The notes beneath the pieces were generated by a model, which saw only the letters and a list, made by a program, of their open reading frames with translations, was not told the DNA's origin and did not search any database. Shown piece by piece: positions 295 through 38,032 of a DNA stretch of 38,032 nt. The DNA is from Candidatus Uhrbacteria bacterium (GTDB lineage: Bacteria; Patescibacteriota; Patescibacteriia; 2-12-FULL-60-25). The stretch lies in assembly GCA_903918235.1 (NCBI GenBank), contig CAIXDN010000070.1, positions 1 to 38,032 on the forward strand, in the 5' to 3' direction. Each line of letters opens with the position of its first letter. The first letter of the stretch is position 1. The position numbers were made by a program, and so were the translations under genes.

Positions 295-1404
295 ATGACG
301 ACTCCTCAAACTCCTCAGGCTTGCGACGTCGCAACAAAACAGTCTTTTGGCTCCAGACTTTGGCAAGCGGTTTTGGCTGTCGCTTTGGTTTGGTTTGCAT
401 GGCGCTTCATGATCTCGCCATTCCTGTTTTTGTTGCCGAGTGCATCCGTTAGTCCTTCTTATGTCGCGATGTTTGTCCTTGGTTTTGTTGCAAGCGTTTC
501 CACGTGTTTAGCATCGACTGGTGCGTTTTTAATTGCGTTTAGCGGAAAGGATGCCAAGAGTGTTGCGATGACGCATGCGGGGCGATTAATTGCTTTTGCG
601 GTTGGAGGTGCTTTGCTTGGTGGTATTGGTCAGAGCATTTCTGTTTCTTCTGGAGTGTATGGTGTGGTTGGGATTGTGCTCGGATTGGTTCTTATCGGCG
701 TTGCGCTTTATCTTTTGGATTTGTTGCCACGTAGCAAGATGCATTTGCCTATGGCTTTTGGACGATTTGCTTATAACGTGGCTGGGAAGCGTGGTAAGGC
801 ACTTCCTCCGCTTGTCGGAGCAGTGACATTCTTATTGCCATGCGGATTTACGCAGGCAGCTCAGGCGATGGCTTTGGCTTCCGGTTCTGCACAGACGGGA
901 GCATTGATGATGGGTGCTTTTGCACTCGGAACATTTCCGGTTCTTGTTGGTTTGAGTTTTTTTGGATCTGTCGTGTCGATGAAGAGTAAGAATTTACAGC
1001 TCGCGACTGGAGGCATGCTTGTGTTGTTTGCTGTTGCACAGATTGATGGCGGACTTACGGTGCTTGGATCGCGTGTGACATTAGATGGTGCGCTCGCTTC
1101 TGTTGGAGGGGCTTTTACGGTGTCGACGGTTGAAGCGGAAGAACAGGTAATTAGTATGAAAGTCGCTTATGGAGCATTTTCTCCAAGTCGATTTACGTTA
1201 AAGCGTGGCGTGCCGGTGCGATGGGATATTGATGGCGTCGATGTTTCCGGTTGTGCGAGTTCTATCGTCGTGCCAACGATGGGGATTAGTCAGGGTTTGG
1301 TTTTGGGAAAAAATCAGATTCGATTTACGCCATCACGCAATGGAACGATTCCTTTTTCCTGCTCGATGGGTATGATTCGCGGTTCATTCCAAGTTGTTGA
1401 TTAA
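295..1404 (+). CDS. TauE/SafE (DsbD/UreH-like) multi-TM protein with C-terminal cupredoxin-like domain
   Basis: Multi-TM with [20 protein letters not shown]-terminal [15 protein letters not shown]...[18 protein letters not shown]. Confidence 0.75.
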
Positions 1405-1408
1405 GTTT

Positions 1409-3553
1409 ATGAAGACGACATTGAAGATTCTTGGAATGCATTGTGCGAGTTGTGCGCTTACGACGGAGCAGGCATTGAAAAAAGTTCATGGCGTGAAAGA
1501 GGCACGTGTGAATTTTGCGAGCGAGCGTGCGACGATTGAGCATGATGAGCATGTTCACTCGGACATGTTGGTGAAAGCGGTTAAGGACAATGGTTATGAT
1601 GCGATGACGGAACATGAAATGCATGAATCCCATACATCGCATCTTTCTCATGCGGGATATATTGATACACGTGGCCTCGTCATTGCTGGAACGCTCGCTT
1701 TGCCATTGGTTGTGAGTATGTTTGTGATGTTGCCGACGATTCTCCTTGCTGTTTGCGCTTGGATTTTGGTCGTTATTATTGGTTGGAAATTTCATGTTGG
1801 CACGTGGAGTGATTTGAAGCATTTTCGTGCGAGCATGGATACGCTTGTGACCGTTGGTACGGGATCGGCTTTGCTTTGGAGTACGTATGCGATGTTTGCG
1901 GGTGGGGATGTGTATTTTGAGATTTCTGGAATCGTTGTGTTCTTTTTGTTGTTAGGGAAGTGGCTTGAGGCACGTCAGCGCATGAAGGCGGGAGAATCGA
2001 TCGAGAAACTGCTCTCGTTGAATACAAAGACAGCGCATCGTTTATTGGAAGATGGAACAACGGAGGAAGTTGATTCTGTAAAACTCAAAATTGGCGATTA
2101 TTGCTTGGTCAAAAGCGGTGAGCGTATTCCGATGGATGGCGTAGTTGTGAAGGGTAATTCCTCCGTTGATGAGTCGATGCTGACGGGAGAATCGGTGCCG
2201 GTTGAGAAGCGTGTGAATGATATTGTGTATGGTGCAACGGTTAATAGCACAGGCTCGTTTACGATGAAGGTGACGGTGAAGCCGGGTGAGTCTGTTTTGG
2301 ATGCAATCGTATCAACGGTTCAACATGCACTTGCCACAAAATCGCCAGTGGAAACGTTCGTTGATCGTGTGTCTGGAATCTTTGTTCCGATTGTTATCGT
2401 TCTTGCGATTGTTACGTTTTGCATTTGGTTGTTTTACATGCAGGTTCCGATGGGAGAGGCGATACGTTATGCCGTTGCCGTGTTAGTTGTTGCTTGTCCT
2501 TGCGCATTGGGACTTGCGACTCCAGCGGCGATTATGGTTGGTACGGGTGCTGGTGCCAAGCGTGGCATTCTTGTGAAGGATGGCTCTGCTCTTGAAGCTG
2601 CGCGGCATGTGAATTTAGTGATCTTTGATAAGACAGGAACGCTTACAGAAGGGAAGCCGACGGTCACGGATGTGATTCCGGCAGAAGGAGTGTTGGAGAA
2701 GGATTTGCTTTCTATTGCTGCTGGTTTGGAGTTGGCATCGGAGCATCCATTAGCGAGTGCGGTTTTATCGGCGGCGACGGAGCGTGGTGCTTTTGTTGCA
2801 TCGGTTGAAGGATTTGAGGTGGTTGTGGGTCAGGGTGTACATGCGATGTATGAGGGTGAAGATATTCGTTTAGGTACAGAGCTGTTTTTGAAGGAGGCAG
2901 GAGTGACATTGCTTGCGATTGATGCGAATCATCTCTCGGTGCTGCGTCATGAAGGAAAGACGGTGATTTTGGTTGCAAAGGGCGGTTTGTATCTTGGGGC
3001 GATTGCGGTACGTGATCGGTTGAAGCCAGATGCAAAGGCTGCGATCAAGGCTTTGCATGATCGAGGAATCCAGACGGGGTTAATTACGGGGGATCATCGT
3101 ATGACAGCAGAGGCGGTTGCAAAGGAGCTTGGTATTGATATGGTCCTTGCGGAAGTATCTCCAATGGAGAAGTCAGATGAGGTAAAGCGTTTACAGCAAG
3201 AAGGGAAAAAGATTGCATTTGTTGGCGATGGTATGAATGATGCGCCGGCTCTTGCGCAGGCAGATCTTGGGATTGCGATGGGAACGGGAACGGATGTTGC
3301 GATTGCAACGGGGCAGATTGTGCTGATGGGTGGTTCACCGCTTAAGGCGTCGGATGCTCTTTGGCTTGCGCGGAGAACGTTTGTCGCGATACGGCAGAAT
3401 TTATTTTGGGCTTTTGCGTATAATGCTGTATTGATTCCTCTTGCGATGCTTGGTGTTGTGAATCCGATCTTTGCTGGACTTGCCATGGCGTTTTCAAGTG
3501 TTAGTGTATTAGCGAATAGTTTGCGCATTTCACGATCATTACGCTCCGTGTAA
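1409..3553 (+). CDS. copA: Copper-translocating P1B-type ATPase
   Basis: N-terminal HMA GMHCASC, TGES, CPC in [33 protein letters not shown]. Confidence 0.95.
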
Positions 3554-3573
3554 GGGCACAATATATTGTGCCC
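3554..3573. repeat. Perfect 20-bp palindrome GGGCACAATATATTGTGCCC
   Basis: Exact self-complementarity; extends with one mismatch to GTA...TAC. Confidence 0.8.
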
Positions 3574-3590
3574 CTACGATAAAATATCCT

Positions 3591-4031
3591 ATGCTTAAAA
3601 AAATTCCTCCTTATCTCTATCCGCTGACATTTTTAATCTCGATGGCTTCCATGGTTGGGAGCTTGTATGCGAGTGATGTGATGCATTTGGCGCCTTGTGT
3701 TTTGTGTTGGTATCAACGCATCACGATGTATCCGATTGTCGTTTTGAGTTTGATTCCGATGGTGAGAAAAGATGAAAAGGCGTATCGCTATATTATCCCG
3801 TTTGCGATTATTGGTGCGGTTATTTCTGCGTATCATACGGTTTTGTACTATGCGGTGAATTGGGGCTTTCGACCTGAATGGACGGGTCCTTGTGTTGCGG
3901 GAGTCTCATGTACGACACGATATTTTGAGTTGTTTGGATGGGTGAGTATTCCTCTGATGTCGTTTTTGTCTCATATCGCTGTGCTTGCTTTGGCAGTGTT
4001 GGCGAGGAAGTTGGGGAAGAAGACTTCTTGA
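3591..4031 (+). CDS. dsbB: Disulfide bond formation protein DsbB/BdbC family
   Basis: Four-TM protein with CVLCWYQR motif and second Cys pair (CVAGVSCTTRYFE). Confidence 0.9.
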   Translation: MLKKIPPYLYPLTFLISMASMVGSLYASDVMHLAPCVLCWYQRITMYPIVVLSLIPMVRKDEKAYRYIIPFAIIGAVISAYHTVLYYAVNWGFRPEWTGPCVAGVSCTTRYFELFGWVSIPLMSFLSHIAVLALAVLARKLGKKTS

Positions 4032-4056
4032 CAGGTTAGTCACTTAACCGTAAATT
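4028..4056 (+). promoter_or_regulatory. Putative sigma70-type promoter TTGACA-N17-TAAATT with inverted repeat GGTTA-N6-TAACC in the spacer
   Basis: -35 at 4028-4033, -10 at 4051-4056, IR arms 4034-4038 and 4045-4049. Confidence 0.6.
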
Positions 4057-4085
4057 CCCAGTTACGAGCTGGGAATTTAGTTTTG
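4051..4085 (+). other. Stem-loop AAATTCCCAG-TTACGA-(G)CTGGGAATTT followed by a short T run
   Basis: Perfect stem between dsbB stop and the Rrf2 gene; terminator or operator/leader element. Confidence 0.55.
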
Positions 4086-4097
4086 GCTCAATTTTCA

Positions 4098-4499
4098 ATG
4101 AATTCATTGTTTCGCGTTTCCGAGCGCAATCATTTTGGGATGATTTTTATGACTCAGCTTGCGGCTTTGGCCGAAGGTGAGTTTTTGAGTGTGAAGGATG
4201 CGGCAAAGGGGATGGGCATGGCGGAGGGGTATTTGGAGGAGGTTTCTGGGAGTTTGAAGAAGGCGGGATTGGTGGCGGGGCGGCAGGGGCCGGGGGGTGG
4301 GTATCGGTTGGCGAAGGGGGCGGGGGAGATATCGGCGGAGGATATTGTGGTGGCTTTGGAGGGGCCGGTGGTGCTTGTGTCTTGTTTGGAATCGCATGGA
4401 TGCCCGGTGCAGGAAAAGTGTCAGAGTAAGAATTTGTGGGGATTTTTGCAAAAAGATGTGTTGGCGACTTTGCGAAAGACAAAGCTTTCTGATTTATGA
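4098..4499 (+). CDS. Rrf2-family (IscR-like) transcriptional regulator
   Basis: wHTH with GPGGGYRLAK; three-Cys motif CLESHGCPVQEKC; upstream of Fe-S genes. Confidence 0.85.
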   Translation: MNSLFRVSERNHFGMIFMTQLAALAEGEFLSVKDAAKGMGMAEGYLEEVSGSLKKAGLVAGRQGPGGGYRLAKGAGEISAEDIVVALEGPVVLVSCLESHGCPVQEKCQSKNLWGFLQKDVLATLRKTKLSDL

Positions 4500-5710
4500 A
4501 GACAAATAAAATCATCTATTTAGATCATGCGGCGACGACGCCACTTGATCCACGTGTATTGGAAGCGATGCAGCCGTATTTTACGGAGGATTTTGGTAAT
4601 CCTTCTTCTTTCCACTCTGTTGGAATGCGGGCAAAAGACGCCGTTGCGGAAGCGCGTGGAACGGTTGCGCGTTTGCTGGGTGGTCATGAGGATGAGATTC
4701 TTTTTACTTCTGGTGGAACAGAGTCGGATAATTTGGCGGTGATGGGTGTGCCGAGATATTGGCATGAGAAGAATGGAGTGTTACCGCATGTGATCACGAG
4801 CGCGGTAGAGCATTATGCTGTGTTGGAACCGTTGATAGCGATGGATCGGAAGAAGGAAATTGAATTGACGATTGTTGGAGTGAGTCGTGAGGGACAAATT
4901 TCTGTTGAGGAGGTGATGAGCGCGATCAAATCGAATACGGTTTTGATTTCCATCATGACGGCTAATAATGAAATAGGTACCATTCAGCCGATTGCGGAGC
5001 TTGGTCGAGAGATTTTAAAATATCGTAAGTTGCATGCGACGACGTTTCCTTATCTGCATACGGATGCTTGTCAGGCGACGGGATTTTTGGATTTAAATGT
5101 AGAGAAAACGCATGTAGATTTGTTGACGTTGAATGGTTCAAAAATGTATGGACCAAAGGGTGTTGGTGTTTTGTATGTGCGTCGTGGCGTGAAGGTACAG
5201 CCCATGTTTATTGGTGGAGGTCAGGAAAAGAATTTGCGATCCGGAACAGAGAATGTGCCCGGAATTATTGGGCTTGCGAAGGCTTTTGAGTTGGTTCAGG
5301 CGGAGCGTGAAGTAGAGAGTGCTCGATTGAGTACGCTTCGTGATCGGCTTGCGCAGGGTTTGTTATCGATTCCAAAAACCATCTTGAATGGTCATCCAAA
5401 AGAGCGATTGCCAAATAGCGTGAATATTTCTTTTATCGATATTGAGGGTGAAGCGGCGGTGCTTTATCTTGATGCGCAGGGGATTATGGTTTCAACGGGA
5501 TCCGCATGTGCATCGACGTCACTTGATCCTTCTCATGTGATTCTTGCAACCGGACTTTCTTATGAAGCGGCGCATGGATCCATTCGATTTACGCTCGGAC
5601 ATTCTACAACGGAGGAAGATGTCGATTTTGTTCTACGGGTGATGCCGGCGATTGTTGAGCGTTTGCGTTTGATGAGCCCGGCGAATTTAGATATGAAATA
5701 TTTTGCTTAA
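4496..5710 (+). CDS. Cysteine desulfurase (NifS/IscS family)
   Basis: YLDHAATTPLDPRV, LFTSGGTESDNLAV, NGSKMYGPKGVGVLYVRRG, GSACASTS. Confidence 0.95.
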   Translation: MKTNKIIYLDHAATTPLDPRVLEAMQPYFTEDFGNPSSFHSVGMRAKDAVAEARGTVARLLGGHEDEILFTSGGTESDNLAVMGVPRYWHEKNGVLPHVITSAVEHYAVLEPLIAMDRKKEIELTIVGVSREGQISVEEVMSAIKSNTVLISIMTANNEIGTIQPIAELGREILKYRKLHATTFPYLHTDACQATGFLDLNVEKTHVDLLTLNGSKMYGPKGVGVLYVRRGVKVQPMFIGGGQEKNLRSGTENVPGIIGLAKAFELVQAEREVESARLSTLRDRLAQGLLSIPKTILNGHPKERLPNSVNISFIDIEGEAAVLYLDAQGIMVSTGSACASTSLDPSHVILATGLSYEAAHGSIRFTLGHSTTEEDVDFVLRVMPAIVERLRLMSPANLDMKYFA

Positions 5711-5711
5711 T

Positions 5712-6362
5712 ATGCAAGGAGATGTTATCGCAAAAAAAGAAGATAAAGGGTGGTTCTATACTGATACGGTAAAAGAGCATTTTTTTCATCCAAAGAATTT
5801 TTTGGAGGATGAAGCTGCTTATGGTGATGCGTATCTTGGTATGGTTGGATCTCCGGCTTGTGGTGATGCGATGAAGGTTTATCTCAAGATTGAAAAAGAC
5901 GCGGATGGGCTTGAGCGCATCAAGGATTTTAAGTGGAAAACGTTTGGTTGCGCCTCAGCTATTGCGGCGACGTCAATGCTATCGGTGATGGTAACGGAAC
6001 ATGGTGGAATGTTGCTTGAAGAGGCGTTGAAATTGCGTCCTCAGGACATTATGTTGCGACTTGGTGGATTGCCGGCTCGCAAGATTCATTGTTCAGTGCT
6101 TGGTGATAAAGCGTTGCGTAGCGCGGTGAATGATTATTATCGAAAGAGTGGTCAGATCGATAAGATTTCATTGGAAGCGGGACGTGTGATCGACCATGTC
6201 TTAAAGATTACGGATCACGACATTGAGGAGGCGGTTCTTGAAGGAGCGGATACATTAGAAAAGGTTCAAGCTCGGACAAAGGTTGGAACAGGGGATCCTT
6301 CTTGTATTCCAGAAGTCGAGAATCTTATTCGGTTTTACAAAGAGAAGTATTTTGGGGCATAA
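5712..6362 (+). CDS. NifU/IscU-type Fe-S scaffold with C-terminal degenerate BFD-like region
   Basis: GSPACGD, TFGCASAIA, KIHCSVLG; C-term ITDHDIEEAVLEGADTLEKVQARTKVGTGDPSCIPEVENLI. Confidence 0.88.
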   Translation: MQGDVIAKKEDKGWFYTDTVKEHFFHPKNFLEDEAAYGDAYLGMVGSPACGDAMKVYLKIEKDADGLERIKDFKWKTFGCASAIAATSMLSVMVTEHGGMLLEEALKLRPQDIMLRLGGLPARKIHCSVLGDKALRSAVNDYYRKSGQIDKISLEAGRVIDHVLKITDHDIEEAVLEGADTLEKVQARTKVGTGDPSCIPEVENLIRFYKEKYFGA

Positions 6363-8830: not shown

Positions 8831-10816
8831 ATGTCGCGTTTTCTTATCGCGATTCTCGTAGTGTCTGTTCTCGTTCTTGTACCGTCCCTTGTGTTGGCGC
8901 AAGATTTGTCTATGCCTGGTCGAGGGGAAATCCTCGAACTTCGGCGCGATGATTCGCGTAATCAAGAAGGATATCGATCCTTCATCTTTGGGCCCTGGGC
9001 CCCTCATATGGGTGGTTTTGGCACGATCCTCAGCCGCGTGAATGCGGATCTTGAGGGCCAAAGGCCTATCACCATGGAGCAGCTCGACGCTGCCAATCGC
9101 TGCCTCGTTATTTATCATCGTCCTGATCGTCGCTCTGGGCGCAACGGAAGTTGCGATACCAATTCTACGAGCGCTAACGTTTCATTTGCTGATTATTGCG
9201 AGGGGGCTGAGTCCTGCTCGCGTTGGCCGATGGTTAATCGTGTGTATCGTATTCCTGCTCGTCCTCGGCTTACGCCGGGGGAGCGTGCAGAGCAGATGGT
9301 TGCTACGCTTGATGGTACGACAGTCACTCATACCGTTCCTGCGCCTGCGCAGCTCGGTGGGTGGATGACGGAGCTCTCTGCTCTGATGGAGGAGCAGCAG
9401 CCTCCGAGTTATGTTCAGGTGCATGATGTTTTGGCAGCATTTGGTCGTACGCTTGAGCGTGCGCCTGCGGGAGCGAATGGTTCGAGCGCTGTTATGGCGC
9501 CTGTTCCCACGGTAATGCCGACGGTTGTTCCTGCCGTCCTTCCCCCCGCCTCTCGCCCGACGAGCGTAGAGAATGGATTTGCTCATCAATCGTCAACGCT
9601 GGATGAAGCCGCCGCCTTCACTCTCGCGCATGCAAAGCTTGTGTGGTCCGTCTTCGCGATCTTGTCCATCGCGTTGATCATTCTTATTCTTAAGGACAAA
9701 TTCGTCGCGTGGTACAGGCCTACGTCGATGACTACTGAATCAGAATCGCCTGAAGCGGAGATCGCGCCTCCGCCTCCTACAAAGGAGCAAGAGCGTGACA
9801 AAAAGTTTTTCGAGTCTCTTGAGAGACTCTGGAAGCACTATGCTCAGAAGGCCCCTCTTTCCGAGGAGTCTCTTGTCCAATTTTTCCTCGCAGCAAATGC
9901 AAATGCGACGCTCGCGCTTGCTTATGGGAATGACCTTCTCAAGCACGCCGATGAAATTGAAGCGTTGAAGAACGTTCCTCCGAAGATTGAATATCGAGAG
10001 GATACGAAGCGCATTGAGGAGCTCGAGACTGCTAATCGTGAGGCTTATGCGCAGGTGCTACAGACTCGTTCTAGTCTCGAGTCGACACAGGAAGCTTTGA
10101 CGAAGGAGCGTGAACAGTGGCATAGCGAGCGTGTTTCATTTGCCTATGAAATGGAAAAGCTCACGAATGAACTTTCACGTTTCAAGGAGAAGGCAAAGTC
10201 GCTGGTTGAGACGCTCTTTCAAGAAGGGTTTGTCAATCTCGATTGCGCCATGGAGCATGCGGCTCATACAGGGGATACTTCCGCGCCTTCGATGATGAAG
10301 GCTGTAGAGCGTATCGCTCTGGCGCATGGTCTGTTCCAGCAGATGGTGCAAGGCGTTTTCAACGACTTGCTCATTTATCTGGATTCGGATCTTGCGACTT
10401 TGGTCAGGCGGTCGGTACGACCGCTTCCGATCGAGTCCACGCAGACGGGGGTTGGTTCCCCAAAATCCGCTGAGCCTGATGACATTCCTTTCCGGATTAG
10501 TCAGCATGCACCAGTGACTGCTCCTACCACGTCAAAACGTGGAAAGAAGCAGGCTGAGCGCGATGAGAGACGTCGTCGAAGGATGACGGAACCCATCGAG
10601 AGGGTACAGAATCCTTTGGAGGAGCTTCCGAATGTCGGGACGCTCGTCATGAAGCCGCCGCCGTTCTTTCCTCCTACTGAGGATTTGGGAACGGAGCCGG
10701 ATTCTGTCCCGCCGGTGCCTGGAGCCTCAAGTATGTATGAGGATTCCAAGCTGCCTGAGGATACCGGAATTACATCGGTCATTCACAAGCTCGTGATAAA
10801 CGAGACGAAAGACTGA
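8831..10816 (+). CDS. Exported membrane protein: signal peptide, LysM-like N-terminal region, single TM, long coiled coil
   Basis: MSRFLIAILVVSVLVLVPSLVLAQ; TM LVWSVFAILSIALIILIL; coiled-coil after TM. Confidence 0.75.
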   Translation: MSRFLIAILVVSVLVLVPSLVLAQDLSMPGRGEILELRRDDSRNQEGYRSFIFGPWAPHMGGFGTILSRVNADLEGQRPITMEQLDAANRCLVIYHRPDRRSGRNGSCDTNSTSANVSFADYCEGAESCSRWPMVNRVYRIPARPRLTPGERAEQMVATLDGTTVTHTVPAPAQLGGWMTELSALMEEQQPPSYVQVHDVLAAFGRTLERAPAGANGSSAVMAPVPTVMPTVVPAVLPPASRPTSVENGFAHQSSTLDEAAAFTLAHAKLVWSVFAILSIALIILILKDKFVAWYRPTSMTTESESPEAEIAPPPPTKEQERDKKFFESLERLWKHYAQKAPLSEESLVQFFLAANANATLALAYGNDLLKHADEIEALKNVPPKIEYREDTKRIEELETANREAYAQVLQTRSSLESTQEALTKEREQWHSERVSFAYEMEKLTNELSRFKEKAKSLVETLFQEGFVNLDCAMEHAAHTGDTSAPSMMKAVERIALAHGLFQQMVQGVFNDLLIYLDSDLATLVRRSVRPLPIESTQTGVGSPKSAEPDDIPFRISQHAPVTAPTTSKRGKKQAERDERRRRRMTEPIERVQNPLEELPNVGTLVMKPPPFFPPTEDLGTEPDSVPPVPGASSMYEDSKLPEDTGITSVIHKLVINETKD

Positions 10817-10827
10817 CCACGCCACTC

Positions 10828-10862
10828 GACCCCGCCCGTAATCTTACGGAGCGGGGTCTTGA
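10828..10862 (+). terminator. Rho-independent-like terminator
   Basis: GACCCCGC CCGTAATCTTACGG AGCGGGGTC. Confidence 0.7.
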
Positions 10863-10920
10863 CTTTTATTCAAATATTTGACCAAATACTTGTGGGTATT
10901 CTTACCCGATAGAGGTTTTT

Positions 10921-12711
10921 ATGGCGCGGTTCTCGTGGATGTTCAGTGGTTTGATCGCATCGGTTTGCGTGATGATCGTTTCTCCCGTGCAAGCGCAAGA
11001 GCGGCCTCAGGTCGAACTTGTCTCGGTGCATCGCGGTGAATCGATTGCGCGAATTCGTGTCAACGAAGGTGGTCGCCTTCGTGATATCAATACTCTGGCT
11101 CGTCGCTATGCGAGGGCACCAGGTCTTCACATCGATATGGAGATGATCGCCGATCGGAATCCGAACGGCATCATCTATGTCTGCTATGACAATGTGCGGG
11201 GTGAACGCCCCATGATGCGACGTGATCCTGCTTTGGTAGGAGCTTGCGTTCATCATCGGATGGCGCGATGGCTTGTGGCGGGGAGGACGTACAACGTGCC
11301 TCTTCAACCGGAAGCAGCTCCTATGCAAGAAGTGACCGCTCCTGTAGCACAGCCTGTTGCTGTGAATCGTAATATGCTCGAATTTACGGGCCAGGCTCGT
11401 ATCATTGAGCTTGAATCGCAATTGGCGAGTTCTCAAAATGAACTTGCTGAGGTCCGTTCGCAAGAGGCGGCCGTACGTCTTGTGGAGAGTGAGCGAGGAA
11501 GCAGTACGCCACTTTGGGTGGCTCTTACGCTCTTTATTCTCGTGGCTATTTCGCTGCTTTATTATCGGCAGCATCAGGATTGGTCCAGGAGGGTGATGTG
11601 GCGTGTGAATGGCATGTATCGAACTTGGGCCGCTTCTCGTGAACGTATGCGCAAGCATATTATCCGAGCGGAGCTCGAAGCGATTATGCACAAAGAAGGA
11701 ATGATTGGAGCTGCAAGAGAGCTCGGACGTGTGACAACGCGGTTTGGACGACTGCGTAAGCGATGTTCTTTTCTTCTTGTCCAGCTGGCGAAGCATCGGA
11801 AGTTGCTTCATCAGTCTCACGCTTCTCTTCAAATCTTCCAACGACAGCAATCTGAGGATATTGCTCGTCGAGAACGTCTTCCAAGACTCCTCAATCTTGT
11901 GGATCAGGCGCGGATTCACCAGACAAATGCTCGTAAGGCGCGTGCTCGTTCTGAGATGATTCTTCACTGGCTTCAGCAACTCCGAAGTGGTGAGAAGCCT
12001 GCCTCTCGAACGATGCGATCTATCCTTGTTTCGACGTATCGGCGCATGCTCTCGGAGTATCGTGCGGATCGTTTGAAGCACGAGGCACTGGTTCAATCGT
12101 GTGAAGAAGCAAAGACGCAAGCGATTGATGATCTGTATGCGATGACTGGTATGCGTACGGATTCCGTTGATCCGCAAGGGCGTCTTGAGCGAGAAATTCA
12201 TACGGCGACGCGCACTGCTGAAGTTTTGCAGGTGCGTACGGAAACCCTGAATGAACTTATTCAGGTCTATCAAGATCTCACGGCTTCCCAAACGCGCGAG
12301 CATGAAGCTCGTGTCGCAAAGTGGAAGAAAGAGCATGAGGCGTCTGAGTCTGTCGCTGTTTGGACGGAGAGTCTTGTTACAACAAGTGCTCTAACCAAAC
12401 TGACGGATGTCGAACGCCGGATGTATGAGCTCGAGGGTCGTACGGCTGGACTCGAGCGCCGTGCCATTACGGCAGAACAAGAACTTGAACAAGTGAATGA
12501 TTTTGTCGGTAAGCTCCAGCCTCAATATAAGATGGCCAAGGAGTTGCTCGATGAGATCAAAAAGGGCCCAAATTATCTGGATGCACGCGTCGTTCAGATG
12601 GCGGAGTATATCCGCAATCTGGAAGATGAACTTGGAATCCAGCGTAAGTCGATCTGGAGCGGACTTCCAGAAGTAGCCTATGGCGCGATTCCTTCTAAGG
12701 GGAATGCTTAG
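10921..12711 (+). CDS. Exported membrane protein with the same layout as the preceding gene
   Basis: Signal peptide ending VQAQ; VHRGESIARI...IADRNPN...LVAGRTYNVP; TM PLWVALTLFILVAISLLYY; coiled coil. Confidence 0.75.
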   Translation: MARFSWMFSGLIASVCVMIVSPVQAQERPQVELVSVHRGESIARIRVNEGGRLRDINTLARRYARAPGLHIDMEMIADRNPNGIIYVCYDNVRGERPMMRRDPALVGACVHHRMARWLVAGRTYNVPLQPEAAPMQEVTAPVAQPVAVNRNMLEFTGQARIIELESQLASSQNELAEVRSQEAAVRLVESERGSSTPLWVALTLFILVAISLLYYRQHQDWSRRVMWRVNGMYRTWAASRERMRKHIIRAELEAIMHKEGMIGAARELGRVTTRFGRLRKRCSFLLVQLAKHRKLLHQSHASLQIFQRQQSEDIARRERLPRLLNLVDQARIHQTNARKARARSEMILHWLQQLRSGEKPASRTMRSILVSTYRRMLSEYRADRLKHEALVQSCEEAKTQAIDDLYAMTGMRTDSVDPQGRLEREIHTATRTAEVLQVRTETLNELIQVYQDLTASQTREHEARVAKWKKEHEASESVAVWTESLVTTSALTKLTDVERRMYELEGRTAGLERRAITAEQELEQVNDFVGKLQPQYKMAKELLDEIKKGPNYLDARVVQMAEYIRNLEDELGIQRKSIWSGLPEVAYGAIPSKGNA

Positions 12712-25050: not shown

Positions 25051-28300
<3,250 letters not shown>

Positions 28301-28392
28301 ATCCAGATGTGTAATGCGCGTAAGCGTGTTCATCTAGGATAGGTTGAGCAAATGCGACAAAACAAGTCGCGTGTAGCAAGTGTTTTCCTTTT

Positions 28393-35312: not shown

Positions 35313-35341
35313 TTGAACGATTGGCCTTGCCCATTTATACT
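35313..35341 (+). promoter_or_regulatory. Putative promoter TTGAAC-N17-TATACT
   Basis: -10 ends 7 nt before ATG at 35348. Confidence 0.6.
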
Positions 35342-35347
35342 AGGTGC

Positions 35348-36082
35348 ATGGCTTTACGTACATTTTTTATATGCTTCACAATTTTATTGTTGTTGCCCGT
35401 TCATTTTGTTGTTGCTCAAACGGCTTCTAGCCCAAACTATAAGAATGTTGATTCATCTATTTTGCCGTTGATTGTGAACGCGCAGTCTGGTCATTATCAG
35501 ATTGATGGTGCAATCGACCCTATTGTTGGTTCTGCGCAAAGCGCTTCTTATAAAACGGAGGGAGGTGCGCAGTCACAAACTGGAGTAGCGCCTGTAACAC
35601 CGACTCCAACGCCAACTCCATCAACGGGTGGTGGGGGAGGTGGAGGATTGCCAATTCTTGTTGTTCCTGCGCTTGATCAGGCACCGACCATCGCTCTGAA
35701 AGATTGGACCTATAAGGCGACATCTGTGATTCAAGGAACGCGCGGAGCTTCGGGTGCAGTTATTTTGGTGAATGGTTCTGATACGGATGTTGTTTATCTT
35801 CATGAGAATTCTTGGCAACGATTGTTGCCATTAGGATTAGGAGACAATACGATTCAGGCACAGGCTCGGGTAGGAGATCGTGTTTCTGCTTTGGTTTTTG
35901 GCACTGTTCATCGACGTTTAGTTGGAGACGTTAATGATGATCGTGTTGTGAATGATGTTGATCTTTCTTTGTTTACTCGTCATTGGAAAACGTTTGATAA
36001 ACGATCCGATTTTAATGAAGATGGTAAGATAGATGATATTGATTTATCCTTGCTTGCTAGCCACTGGGCACGGACCTACTAA
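35348..36082 (+). CDS. Secreted dockerin-domain protein
   Basis: Signal peptide ...FVVAQ; TPTPTPTPSTGGGGGGG linker; DVNDDRVVNDVDLSLFTRHW and DFNEDGKIDDIDLSLLASHW. Confidence 0.88.
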   Translation: MALRTFFICFTILLLLPVHFVVAQTASSPNYKNVDSSILPLIVNAQSGHYQIDGAIDPIVGSAQSASYKTEGGAQSQTGVAPVTPTPTPTPSTGGGGGGGLPILVVPALDQAPTIALKDWTYKATSVIQGTRGASGAVILVNGSDTDVVYLHENSWQRLLPLGLGDNTIQAQARVGDRVSALVFGTVHRRLVGDVNDDRVVNDVDLSLFTRHWKTFDKRSDFNEDGKIDDIDLSLLASHWARTY

Positions 36083-36086
36083 AATT

Positions 36087-37274
36087 ATGAATTATTTTTT
36101 ATCACTTGTAGCCCTTTTTCTCATCGTTCCGCGTGTTGCCTTTGCTGCATCGGCAGGACTTTCTGCGCCTATGGAGGTGCAAGTTGGTCATACGTTTCAG
36201 GTTCGTATGGTTGTGGGTGGAGCAAAGGATATCGATACGGTTCGATTTATTGGTGGCTTTCCTTCTGACATGTTGGAGCTTCAGGGGATGGCGAATGGAT
36301 CGGCTTTGCCGACGCGTTCACCGGGATCTGGGATATCGGGCGGGGCATTTAATTTTGGAGGATTTTCTTTGGGAAACCCTGTGAGTGGGGGAGTTCAGGC
36401 TGGTGTATTAACGTTTAAAGCAAAAAAAGTAGGAAAGGCAATGATTGCATTGCATAATGAGACGCGTATTCTTTCTGCTGGAGAAGATCAGACGACGGGA
36501 AGAGGAGGCGTGAGCGTGAAGATTATTGAGGCTTCTGCGAAGGGTGAAATTTCTACCATTGTTCCTGCACAAGCGGTGATTGACCTCTCCAGTACAACTC
36601 ATCCTGATCAGAATGTCTGGTCAACGGCACGGGCGATGAGGCTTGAGTGGAAATTTAGTGGTCGACAACCAACGTCTTATGCGGTTGGTTTTGACCAAGC
36701 TCCAGAAGGTCCAGCGGAGACAAAGCTTTCAACAGATACGTTTGCTTCTTTTAGCGCGCCAAGTGATGGTGTTTGGTATGGTCATCTTGTCGTTCGGTAT
36801 TCTCCGAGTGAAGTTGTACGAAAGGATTATCGTTTTCTTATAGATGCGACGGTGCCGAGACCATTGGCTGTTGCCGTTGACCAAACAGATGTGCGTCCGA
36901 ACACACCAAATTTCTTACGATTTACGGCACTGGATGAATCCTCTGGTATTGCGCATTACGATGTTTCGATTCAGGGAGATTTTGTGACGTCGACACGTTT
37001 GCCTTATTTGTCTGTCTCTGATTTAGGTGTAGGGGAGTATCGAGCAAATATAAAAGCTGTCGATTATGCTGGAAACTTTTCCGAAGGTGTTGCTTCTTTC
37101 CGTTTAGTGGGGTCATCTCTCGTTGAGCAGAATGTTATAAAGGTTGAGAAAACGCAGGACTTTGTATTACGTTTTGTCCTTCTTGTGTTCATTGTTATTC
37201 TGTTGTTTGTTCTTGGAATTTTCATCGGCCGTCAAACGAGCAAGAAGAGACGTAGTAAAAAGAATAAAAGTTAA
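36087..37274 (+). CDS. Cohesin-like protein with Ig-like region and C-terminal TM anchor
   Basis: Signal peptide ...AFAA; VQVGHTFQVRMVV..DTVRFIGGFPSDMLELQG...GGVQAGVLTFKAKKVGKAMIAL; TM FVLRFVLLVFIVILLFVLGIFIG then KKRRSKKNKS. Confidence 0.82.
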   Translation: MNYFLSLVALFLIVPRVAFAASAGLSAPMEVQVGHTFQVRMVVGGAKDIDTVRFIGGFPSDMLELQGMANGSALPTRSPGSGISGGAFNFGGFSLGNPVSGGVQAGVLTFKAKKVGKAMIALHNETRILSAGEDQTTGRGGVSVKIIEASAKGEISTIVPAQAVIDLSSTTHPDQNVWSTARAMRLEWKFSGRQPTSYAVGFDQAPEGPAETKLSTDTFASFSAPSDGVWYGHLVVRYSPSEVVRKDYRFLIDATVPRPLAVAVDQTDVRPNTPNFLRFTALDESSGIAHYDVSIQGDFVTSTRLPYLSVSDLGVGEYRANIKAVDYAGNFSEGVASFRLVGSSLVEQNVIKVEKTQDFVLRFVLLVFIVILLFVLGIFIGRQTSKKRRSKKNKS

Positions 37275-37339: not shown

Positions 37340-38032
37340 ATGAAGCTAGGATTAATATCAAAAATTAATCGAGCCAGTCGAATAATAATAATGTCGATGC
37401 TTTTCTTGACTCAATTGTCAGGAACTGGTCTTTTTGTAGGCGCGTTGCCGGCTCATGCTGCTATCCCTACGACGCTTGGTTACCAGGGACGTTTGAAGAG
37501 TTCTGCGAGTGTCGCGCTTACCGGAAGTTATGGTTTTAAGTTTCGGTTGTATGATTCTCCTGCTGGTGGGGCCGCGCTTTGGACGGAGATTCAGCCGGGT
37601 ATTTCTGTTAGCGATGGATATTTTTCTGTGCGACTTGGTTCTATAACGGCTTTCCCTGCGACGTTTGATTTTAATAAGCCGCTTTATCTTTCAACGGAAG
37701 TAAATGCTGATGGTGAGATGTCGCCTCGTTCTCCTGTTAATACGGTTGCCTATTCTTATACTGCTGGTGGCATTAATTCGCTTGATGCTGTCCCTGTTTC
37801 TGCGACCGGAGGACGAATGTACTATGATACGACGCTTGGTTCTTTGAATTATTATGATGGCGTATCGGGAGTTTGGCGTGACGTTGGTGCTACGCTTGCC
37901 GGTAACTCTATTACAGATGCGATGGTCGTGAATGGCCTTACCATTGATGCGACTGGTTCTATTAACGCCTCCGCTATCAATTCTGGTACGCTTGGAAATG
38001 CCAGCGTGACTTTAGATTTTTCATCATTTGGC
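37340..38032 (+). CDS. Large secreted/surface protein, 3' partial at window edge (absent from ORF track)
   Basis: Frame open from ATG 37340 for 231 codons; signal peptide ...LPAHA then TTLGYQGRLKSSASVALTGSYGFKFRLYDSP. Confidence 0.8.
   Translation, partial: MKLGLISKINRASRIIIMSMLFLTQLSGTGLFVGALPAHAAIPTTLGYQGRLKSSASVALTGSYGFKFRLYDSPAGGAALWTEIQPGISVSDGYFSVRLGSITAFPATFDFNKPLYLSTEVNADGEMSPRSPVNTVAYSYTAGGINSLDAVPVSATGGRMYYDTTLGSLNYYDGVSGVWRDVGATLAGNSITDAMVVNGLTIDATGSINASAINSGTLGNASVTLDFSSFG

Follow-up and report, generated by a model that had tools for sequence, protein, structure and literature searches.

A putative two-gene cohesin-dockerin surface anchor in Candidatus Uhrbacteria with counterparts across the Patescibacteria

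Results

Two adjacent genes encode a dockerin protein and a membrane-anchored cohesin protein

Two adjacent genes near the end of a Candidatus Uhrbacteria contig, here called A and B, probably encode a minimal, non-cellulosomal envelope anchor for surface display, in which a single dockerin plug (A) would fit a single cohesin socket (B), as judged from sequence and predicted structures. Because the pair recurs phylum-wide, these bacteria probably keep proteins at their surface by a stripped-down, non-cellulose form of the cellulosome joint.

The DNA analysed (the window) is the entire contig C70, of 38,032 bases, from an 874 kb genome in 81 contigs with approximately 89% completeness. By a single-protein scan with the gene B product, the closest named relatives are two Candidatus Uhrbacteria (62% identity in B). 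The relevant features are as follows, all on the + strand.

35313..35341, +, promoter-like site TTGAAC-17-TATACT directly before gene A (consensus match only)
35348..36082, +, gene A, secreted Ig-dockerin protein, 244 aa (ORF, Pfam, structure model)
35348..35416, +, A signal peptide, aa 1-23, cleavage after VVA by eye (sequence; model helix 2-14)
35594..35647, +, A TP/G-rich low-complexity linker, aa 83-100 (sequence; low pLDDT)
35681..35914, +, A Ig-like domain, aa 112-189 (model pLDDT >90; Foldseek to Fn3/Ig modules)
35921..36076, +, A dockerin domain, aa 192-243 (Pfam PF00404; Foldseek 2y3n_B)
35927..35962, +, A putative Ca-binding loop 1, DVNDDRVVNDVD, aa 194-205, D at position 10 (sequence; class pattern)
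36008..36043, +, A putative Ca-binding loop 2, DFNEDGKIDDID, aa 221-232, D at position 10 (sequence; class pattern)
36087..37274, +, gene B, membrane-anchored cohesin protein, 395 aa (ORF, family scan, model)
36087..36146, +, B signal peptide, aa 1-20, VAFA-AS by eye (sequence; helix 2-12)
36147..36527, +, B cohesin domain, aa 21-147 (model mostly pLDDT >90; Foldseek; Pfam in relatives)
36576..36842, +, B first Ig-like domain, aa 164-252 (model)
36867..37106, +, B second Ig-like domain, aa 261-340 (model; weak NCBIfam OmpL47-type domain)
37161..37229, +, B transmembrane (TM) helix, aa 359-381 (sequence; model helix 354-391)
37230..37271, +, B short basic cytoplasmic tail, RQTSKKRRSKKNKS (sequence)
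37340..38032, +, large fibre-like surface protein, start only, contig end (weak NCBIfam match; homologues in related loci)

Genes A and B are co-directional, and a divergent polysaccharide flippase gene lies approximately 50 nt from their start. A third co-directional gene begins approximately 65 nt past B and is interrupted by the contig end. The gene coordinates given in a preliminary description (35348-36082 and 36087-37274), with a gap of 4 nt, were confirmed from the ORFs in the sequence. The promoter-like site is weak, since seven such consensus matches were found against 3.7 expected in shuffles.

Elsewhere in the window, consecutive genes at 295-6362 encode a DsbD-like/cupredoxin protein, a heavy-metal P-type ATPase and DsbB and, in the same row, an Rrf2 regulator, a class-V aminotransferase (IscS-like) and a NifU-like protein. 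At 8831-12711, two long ORFs of 661 and 596 aa had no Pfam match. A group I intron (27087-27319) lies within the 23S rRNA gene (25052-28301), and CPR bacteria often carry insertions in their rRNA genes.

The match of protein A to Pfam Dockerin_1 (PF00404) is not a chance one, as it scores 35.4 bits against a curated cut-off of 22.9 (E = 1.2e-8); the best phmmer match among solved dockerins had an E value of 5e-4. The domain consists of two duplicated 12-residue Ca loop-helix repeats (model helices 203-211 and 230-238), with ligand residues at positions 1, 3, 5, 9 and 12 of both loops and 10 of 24 positions identical between the halves. Its model superposes on the solved dockerin 2y3n_B with a TMt of 0.80, an rmsd of 1.5 and 31% identity (Foldseek). 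Both the Ig and dockerin domains were predicted with a pLDDT >90 and the N-terminal part as disordered. Between the signal peptide and the Ig domain lie approximately 80 mostly disordered residues, comprising SSxNF/SxxY-like repeats and the TP/Gly linker, PTPTPTPSTGGGGGGG. The preliminary description had given A a signal peptide, low-complexity linker, Ig-like segment and C-terminal double Ca-loop of type I dockerin pattern; all are present in sequence and model, and the Pfam match and superposition bear out the type I-like assignment.

Taken alone, the sequence of B gave no match above the curated cut-off to Pfam Cohesin (PF00963) and none to PDB sequences by phmmer, nor did the Pfam cohesin model match anything in the genome. 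In a family-level scan, 20 of the 32 proteins of the B family matched Pfam Cohesin at E<=0.1, the lowest E value being 1.5e-9. The predicted structure, built from an alignment with 31 relatives (mean pLDDT 90.4), has a cohesin jelly-roll beta-sandwich as its N-terminal domain. Its best Foldseek match was 2w1n, a cohesin+Fn3 construct, and comparison with single-domain cohesins gave a TMt of 0.83 (2vo8), 0.80 (2jh2) and 0.76 (2xdh) over 132-138 aligned columns. On the grounds of the family matches and the predicted fold, the N-terminal domain of B is treated here as a divergent cohesin. The preliminary description had made its pairing hinge on the fold of this domain, and the structure check returned a cohesin (pLDDT 90, Foldseek TM up to 0.83); the remaining architecture was also as described, with a signal peptide, an Ig-like region (two domains), a C-terminal TM helix and a basic tail.

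Dockerin and cohesin genes co-occur in a fixed order

In genome counts that depend on the HMM cut-offs and include some incomplete genomes, cohesins were detected in 37 of 96 relatives, dockerins in 32 and both in 23 (p = 4e-6, ignoring shared ancestry). No dockerin was detected in 14 of the 37 relatives with a cohesin, and no cohesin in 9 of the 32 with a dockerin. Twenty-one dockerin sites, in 20 of the 96 relatives, lie upstream of a same-strand cohesin, most within approximately 100 nt. Across 152 genomes sampled from the phylum, cohesins were found in 50, dockerins in 57 and both in 38 (p~1e-11, a value that again takes no account of shared ancestry). Thirty of these genomes hold 39 dockerin-then-cohesin combinations within 1 kb, against 5 in the reverse order. 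Outside the family of the source genome (own family, below), one dockerin gene may precede two or three cohesin genes. Within the same genus, G002, which is listed as 100% complete, is without both domains, and G001 encodes one protein of 357 aa in the order TM-dockerin-cohesin (L052:1318-2391), a natural fusion.

Dockerin and cohesin types covary

Distances between dockerins track the distances between their neighbouring cohesins, with a Mantel r of 0.82 (correction for phylogeny incomplete); among the 11 pairs from beyond the own family, r was 0.72 (p = 4e-4). With the Ig domain of the dockerin protein as control, the partial correlation between dockerin and cohesin was 0.62; with the cohesin as control, that between Ig domain and dockerin was 0.21. 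Moreover, the dockerins divide at loop position 10, which with position 11 we take to be the classical type I recognition site. All nine pairs with an 'SPG' cohesin carry Asp here (once Gly), whereas all 11 with a 'W..P' cohesin carry a residue other than Asp, nearly always Leu, Ile or Val; Asp10 is also absent in 11 further W..P pairs. Two genomes break with taxonomy: in G007, of the own family, both domains are of the foreign type, and in G048, from outside it, both are of the own-family type. Thus, the dockerin and cohesin types change together, and not only with taxonomy.

A third gene links the pair to a fibre-like protein

The gene at 37340 is a member of a conserved cluster with A and B; with this gene, and with the additional cohesins of relatives and of the genome itself, the system is larger than two genes. 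The product of the third gene has a weak NCBIfam match to a chimeric trimeric-fibre N-domain, and in six related loci of the own family the pair is followed by homologues of its N-terminus. One of these six encodes a fibre-like protein with Peptidase_S74 chaperone domains, with a LytR_C gene behind. The proximity of the pair to a fibre gene in the own family, and to genes of the CPR 'Pam' pilus system in other families, speaks for a role in the assembly or display of surface structures.

Discussion

A model for surface display

From their signal peptides, A and B would both be secreted. B would then be held in the cytoplasmic membrane by its C-terminal helix, with the predicted cohesin pointing outward on two Ig-like spacers, a topology read from the sequence. 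Protein A, Ig-like and with a long flexible N-terminal part, would dock onto this cohesin through its C-terminal, Ca-dependent dockerin and thereby be displayed on the envelope, as adjacency, co-occurrence, covariation and the natural fusion all suggest. Type I dockerins can bind in either orientation. A may do likewise, because the recognition positions of its two dockerin halves are nearly the same. The preliminary description went no further than saying that A could be tethered by the neighbouring cohesin; the case is now strengthened by the phylum-wide adjacency and fixed order, the domain-specific covariation, the natural TM-dockerin-cohesin fusion and the lack of any other dockerin in the genome. 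More speculatively, the complex so displayed probably acts in surface attachment together with the large downstream fibre protein, and a host or partner cell is a plausible target. Such attachment is a guess, fitting both the lifestyle of cultivated Patescibacteria (PMC12206443) and the adhesion role proposed for cohesins and dockerins in ANME-SRB consortia (PMC9012536, PMC10553843).

Alternative explanations

A search of the assembled genome for further dockerins, as the preliminary description had proposed, found only that of A, an Ig-like protein and not an enzyme. Two single-cohesin proteins are encoded: B and a soluble one on contig C41 (L121:8899-9411), which is free-standing, secreted, 170 aa long and without a TM anchor. 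The cohesin of the latter is 44% identical to that of B and of the same SPG subtype, and no dockerin was found near its gene. B may therefore not be the only partner of A. It is nevertheless unlikely that the dockerin of A mainly binds another cohesin, whether that on C41 or one on another cell, with B binding something else. The similarity of the C41 cohesin to that of B would allow it, as would the partner interaction proposed for adjacent cohesin and dockerin genes in ANME-SRB consortia (PMC10553843), but the conserved A-B adjacency and the covariation of the two domains argue for B. About as unlikely is a non-binding pair, the dockerin-like motif serving only as a terminal domain stabilised by Ca and the cohesin fold only as a spacer. 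The divergence of the B family from known cohesins in sequence is consistent with this, but the covarying residue at position 10, the classical recognition position, speaks against it, as does joint gain and loss, both domains being absent from G002. Adjacency and covariation could in part be explained by co-inheritance of a surface-protein operon. Dockerin and cohesin are also the same two modules as in a cellulosome, yet a cellulosome-like enzyme complex is highly improbable and is refuted for the genome as assembled (approximately 89% complete): the single dockerin sits on a non-enzyme, no multi-cohesin scaffoldin was found in the genome and no glycoside hydrolase family was found among the window proteins scanned. 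With nothing enzymatic attached to the dockerin or the cohesins, this is not a cellulosome, and the earlier observation that no glycoside hydrolase is present holds.

The pair could instead be an accessory of the Pam pilus system, as its anchor, base or tip, and not a free-standing display module; we consider this possible, though the less probable course. Outside the own family, several relatives have Pam pilin-like genes and a gene for a TM protein next to the pair. Pam pilin matches were found in 24 of 42 genomes, which were chosen for carrying the pair or its cohesins, and lie within approximately 8 kb of them in roughly ten. The N-terminus of A also weakly resembles PamT (E = 0.0013). However, most Pam-model matches fall below the cut-off, the own genome gave no match to Pam pilin and has its PamT-like gene on another contig (C52), and the gene linked to the pair in the own family is the fibre protein and not Pam. 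A itself was rejected as a PamT: it scores 18.2 bits against an NCBIfam cut-off of 240, and the similarity is confined to an N-terminal stretch. The C52 locus (L122:3-1803), possibly a Pam-type pilus locus, holds the PamT-like protein beside a TM protein that resembles DUF916-type surface proteins by eye.

Larger sets of dockerin-like sequences were seen elsewhere. Large proteins of G063 (L032) and G066 (L033) contain a dozen or so tandem dockerin-like repeats. They were considered as inverted scaffoldins and rejected, the repeats being internal to large proteins (that of G063 continues into subtilase-like sequence), and are probably separate from the pair system. In the phylum sample, G162, G163, G187 and G226 have 5-11 dockerin matches each, partly gene-clustered in the first three, which suggests larger docking systems elsewhere in the phylum.

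Significance

The cassette consists of small proteins that can be expressed and tested to learn how ultrasmall Patescibacteria construct their surfaces and attach to hosts. About a fifth of the genomes sampled across the phylum carry it, and its specificity pattern is readable. Surface display by the A-B pair would present cohesin-dockerin joints as a general surface-assembly device. It also adds candidate orthogonal protein-joining pairs, and the fusion in G001 is a good target for structure work. A wider proposal, which we put forward only tentatively, is that a portable cassette of one dockerin and one to three cohesins serves Patescibacteria broadly in assembling host-attachment fibres or pili, and that it exists in at least two specificity classes that exclude one another. 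If true, the cassette would be the cellulosome joint repurposed for the symbiosis of episymbionts.

Comparison with known systems

Dockerin and cohesin modules and their non-cellulosomal use are already known. A literature search found no description of a compact, ordered, phylum-wide cassette in Patescibacteria with covarying classes and linkage to fibres or pili. As in cellulosomal type I pairs, the dockerin of A has two Ca loops with putative recognition at loop positions 10/11, the cohesin of B is a predicted beta-sandwich and the cohesin side is membrane- or wall-anchored. Here, however, one enzyme-free dockerin protein faces a single-cohesin anchor with no scaffoldin, and a TM helix takes the place of an SLH or sortase anchor. 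The best structural matches to B are the Clostridium perfringens cohesins of GH84C (2w1n) and a family 33 enzyme (2vo8), which are likewise non-cellulosomal; in 2w1n the cohesin is followed by an Ig/Fn3-like module, as in B. Unlike B, they are appended to secreted glycoside hydrolases.

The WxL/DUF916 clusters of Gram-positives likewise encode surface complexes from several genes, in which partner proteins are Ig-like and anchored by a TM segment (PMC10599100). They are without a cohesin-dockerin joint, and the likeness of the TM neighbour in relatives of the pair is by eye only. Within the Patescibacteria, A has a counterpart in SEML1_0315 of Southlakia epibionticum, a dockerin-domain envelope protein reported to be essential in a transposon screen (PMC10633639); the A-B pair may help to account for this essentiality. 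ANME and syntrophic SRB are reported to have adjacent, non-cellulosomal cohesin and dockerin domains with a proposed role in cell-cell association (PMC9012536, PMC10553843). Those sets are larger and more varied, whereas the unit described here is compact, with only two genes, is conserved throughout a different phylum and has fibre or pilus genes linked to it.
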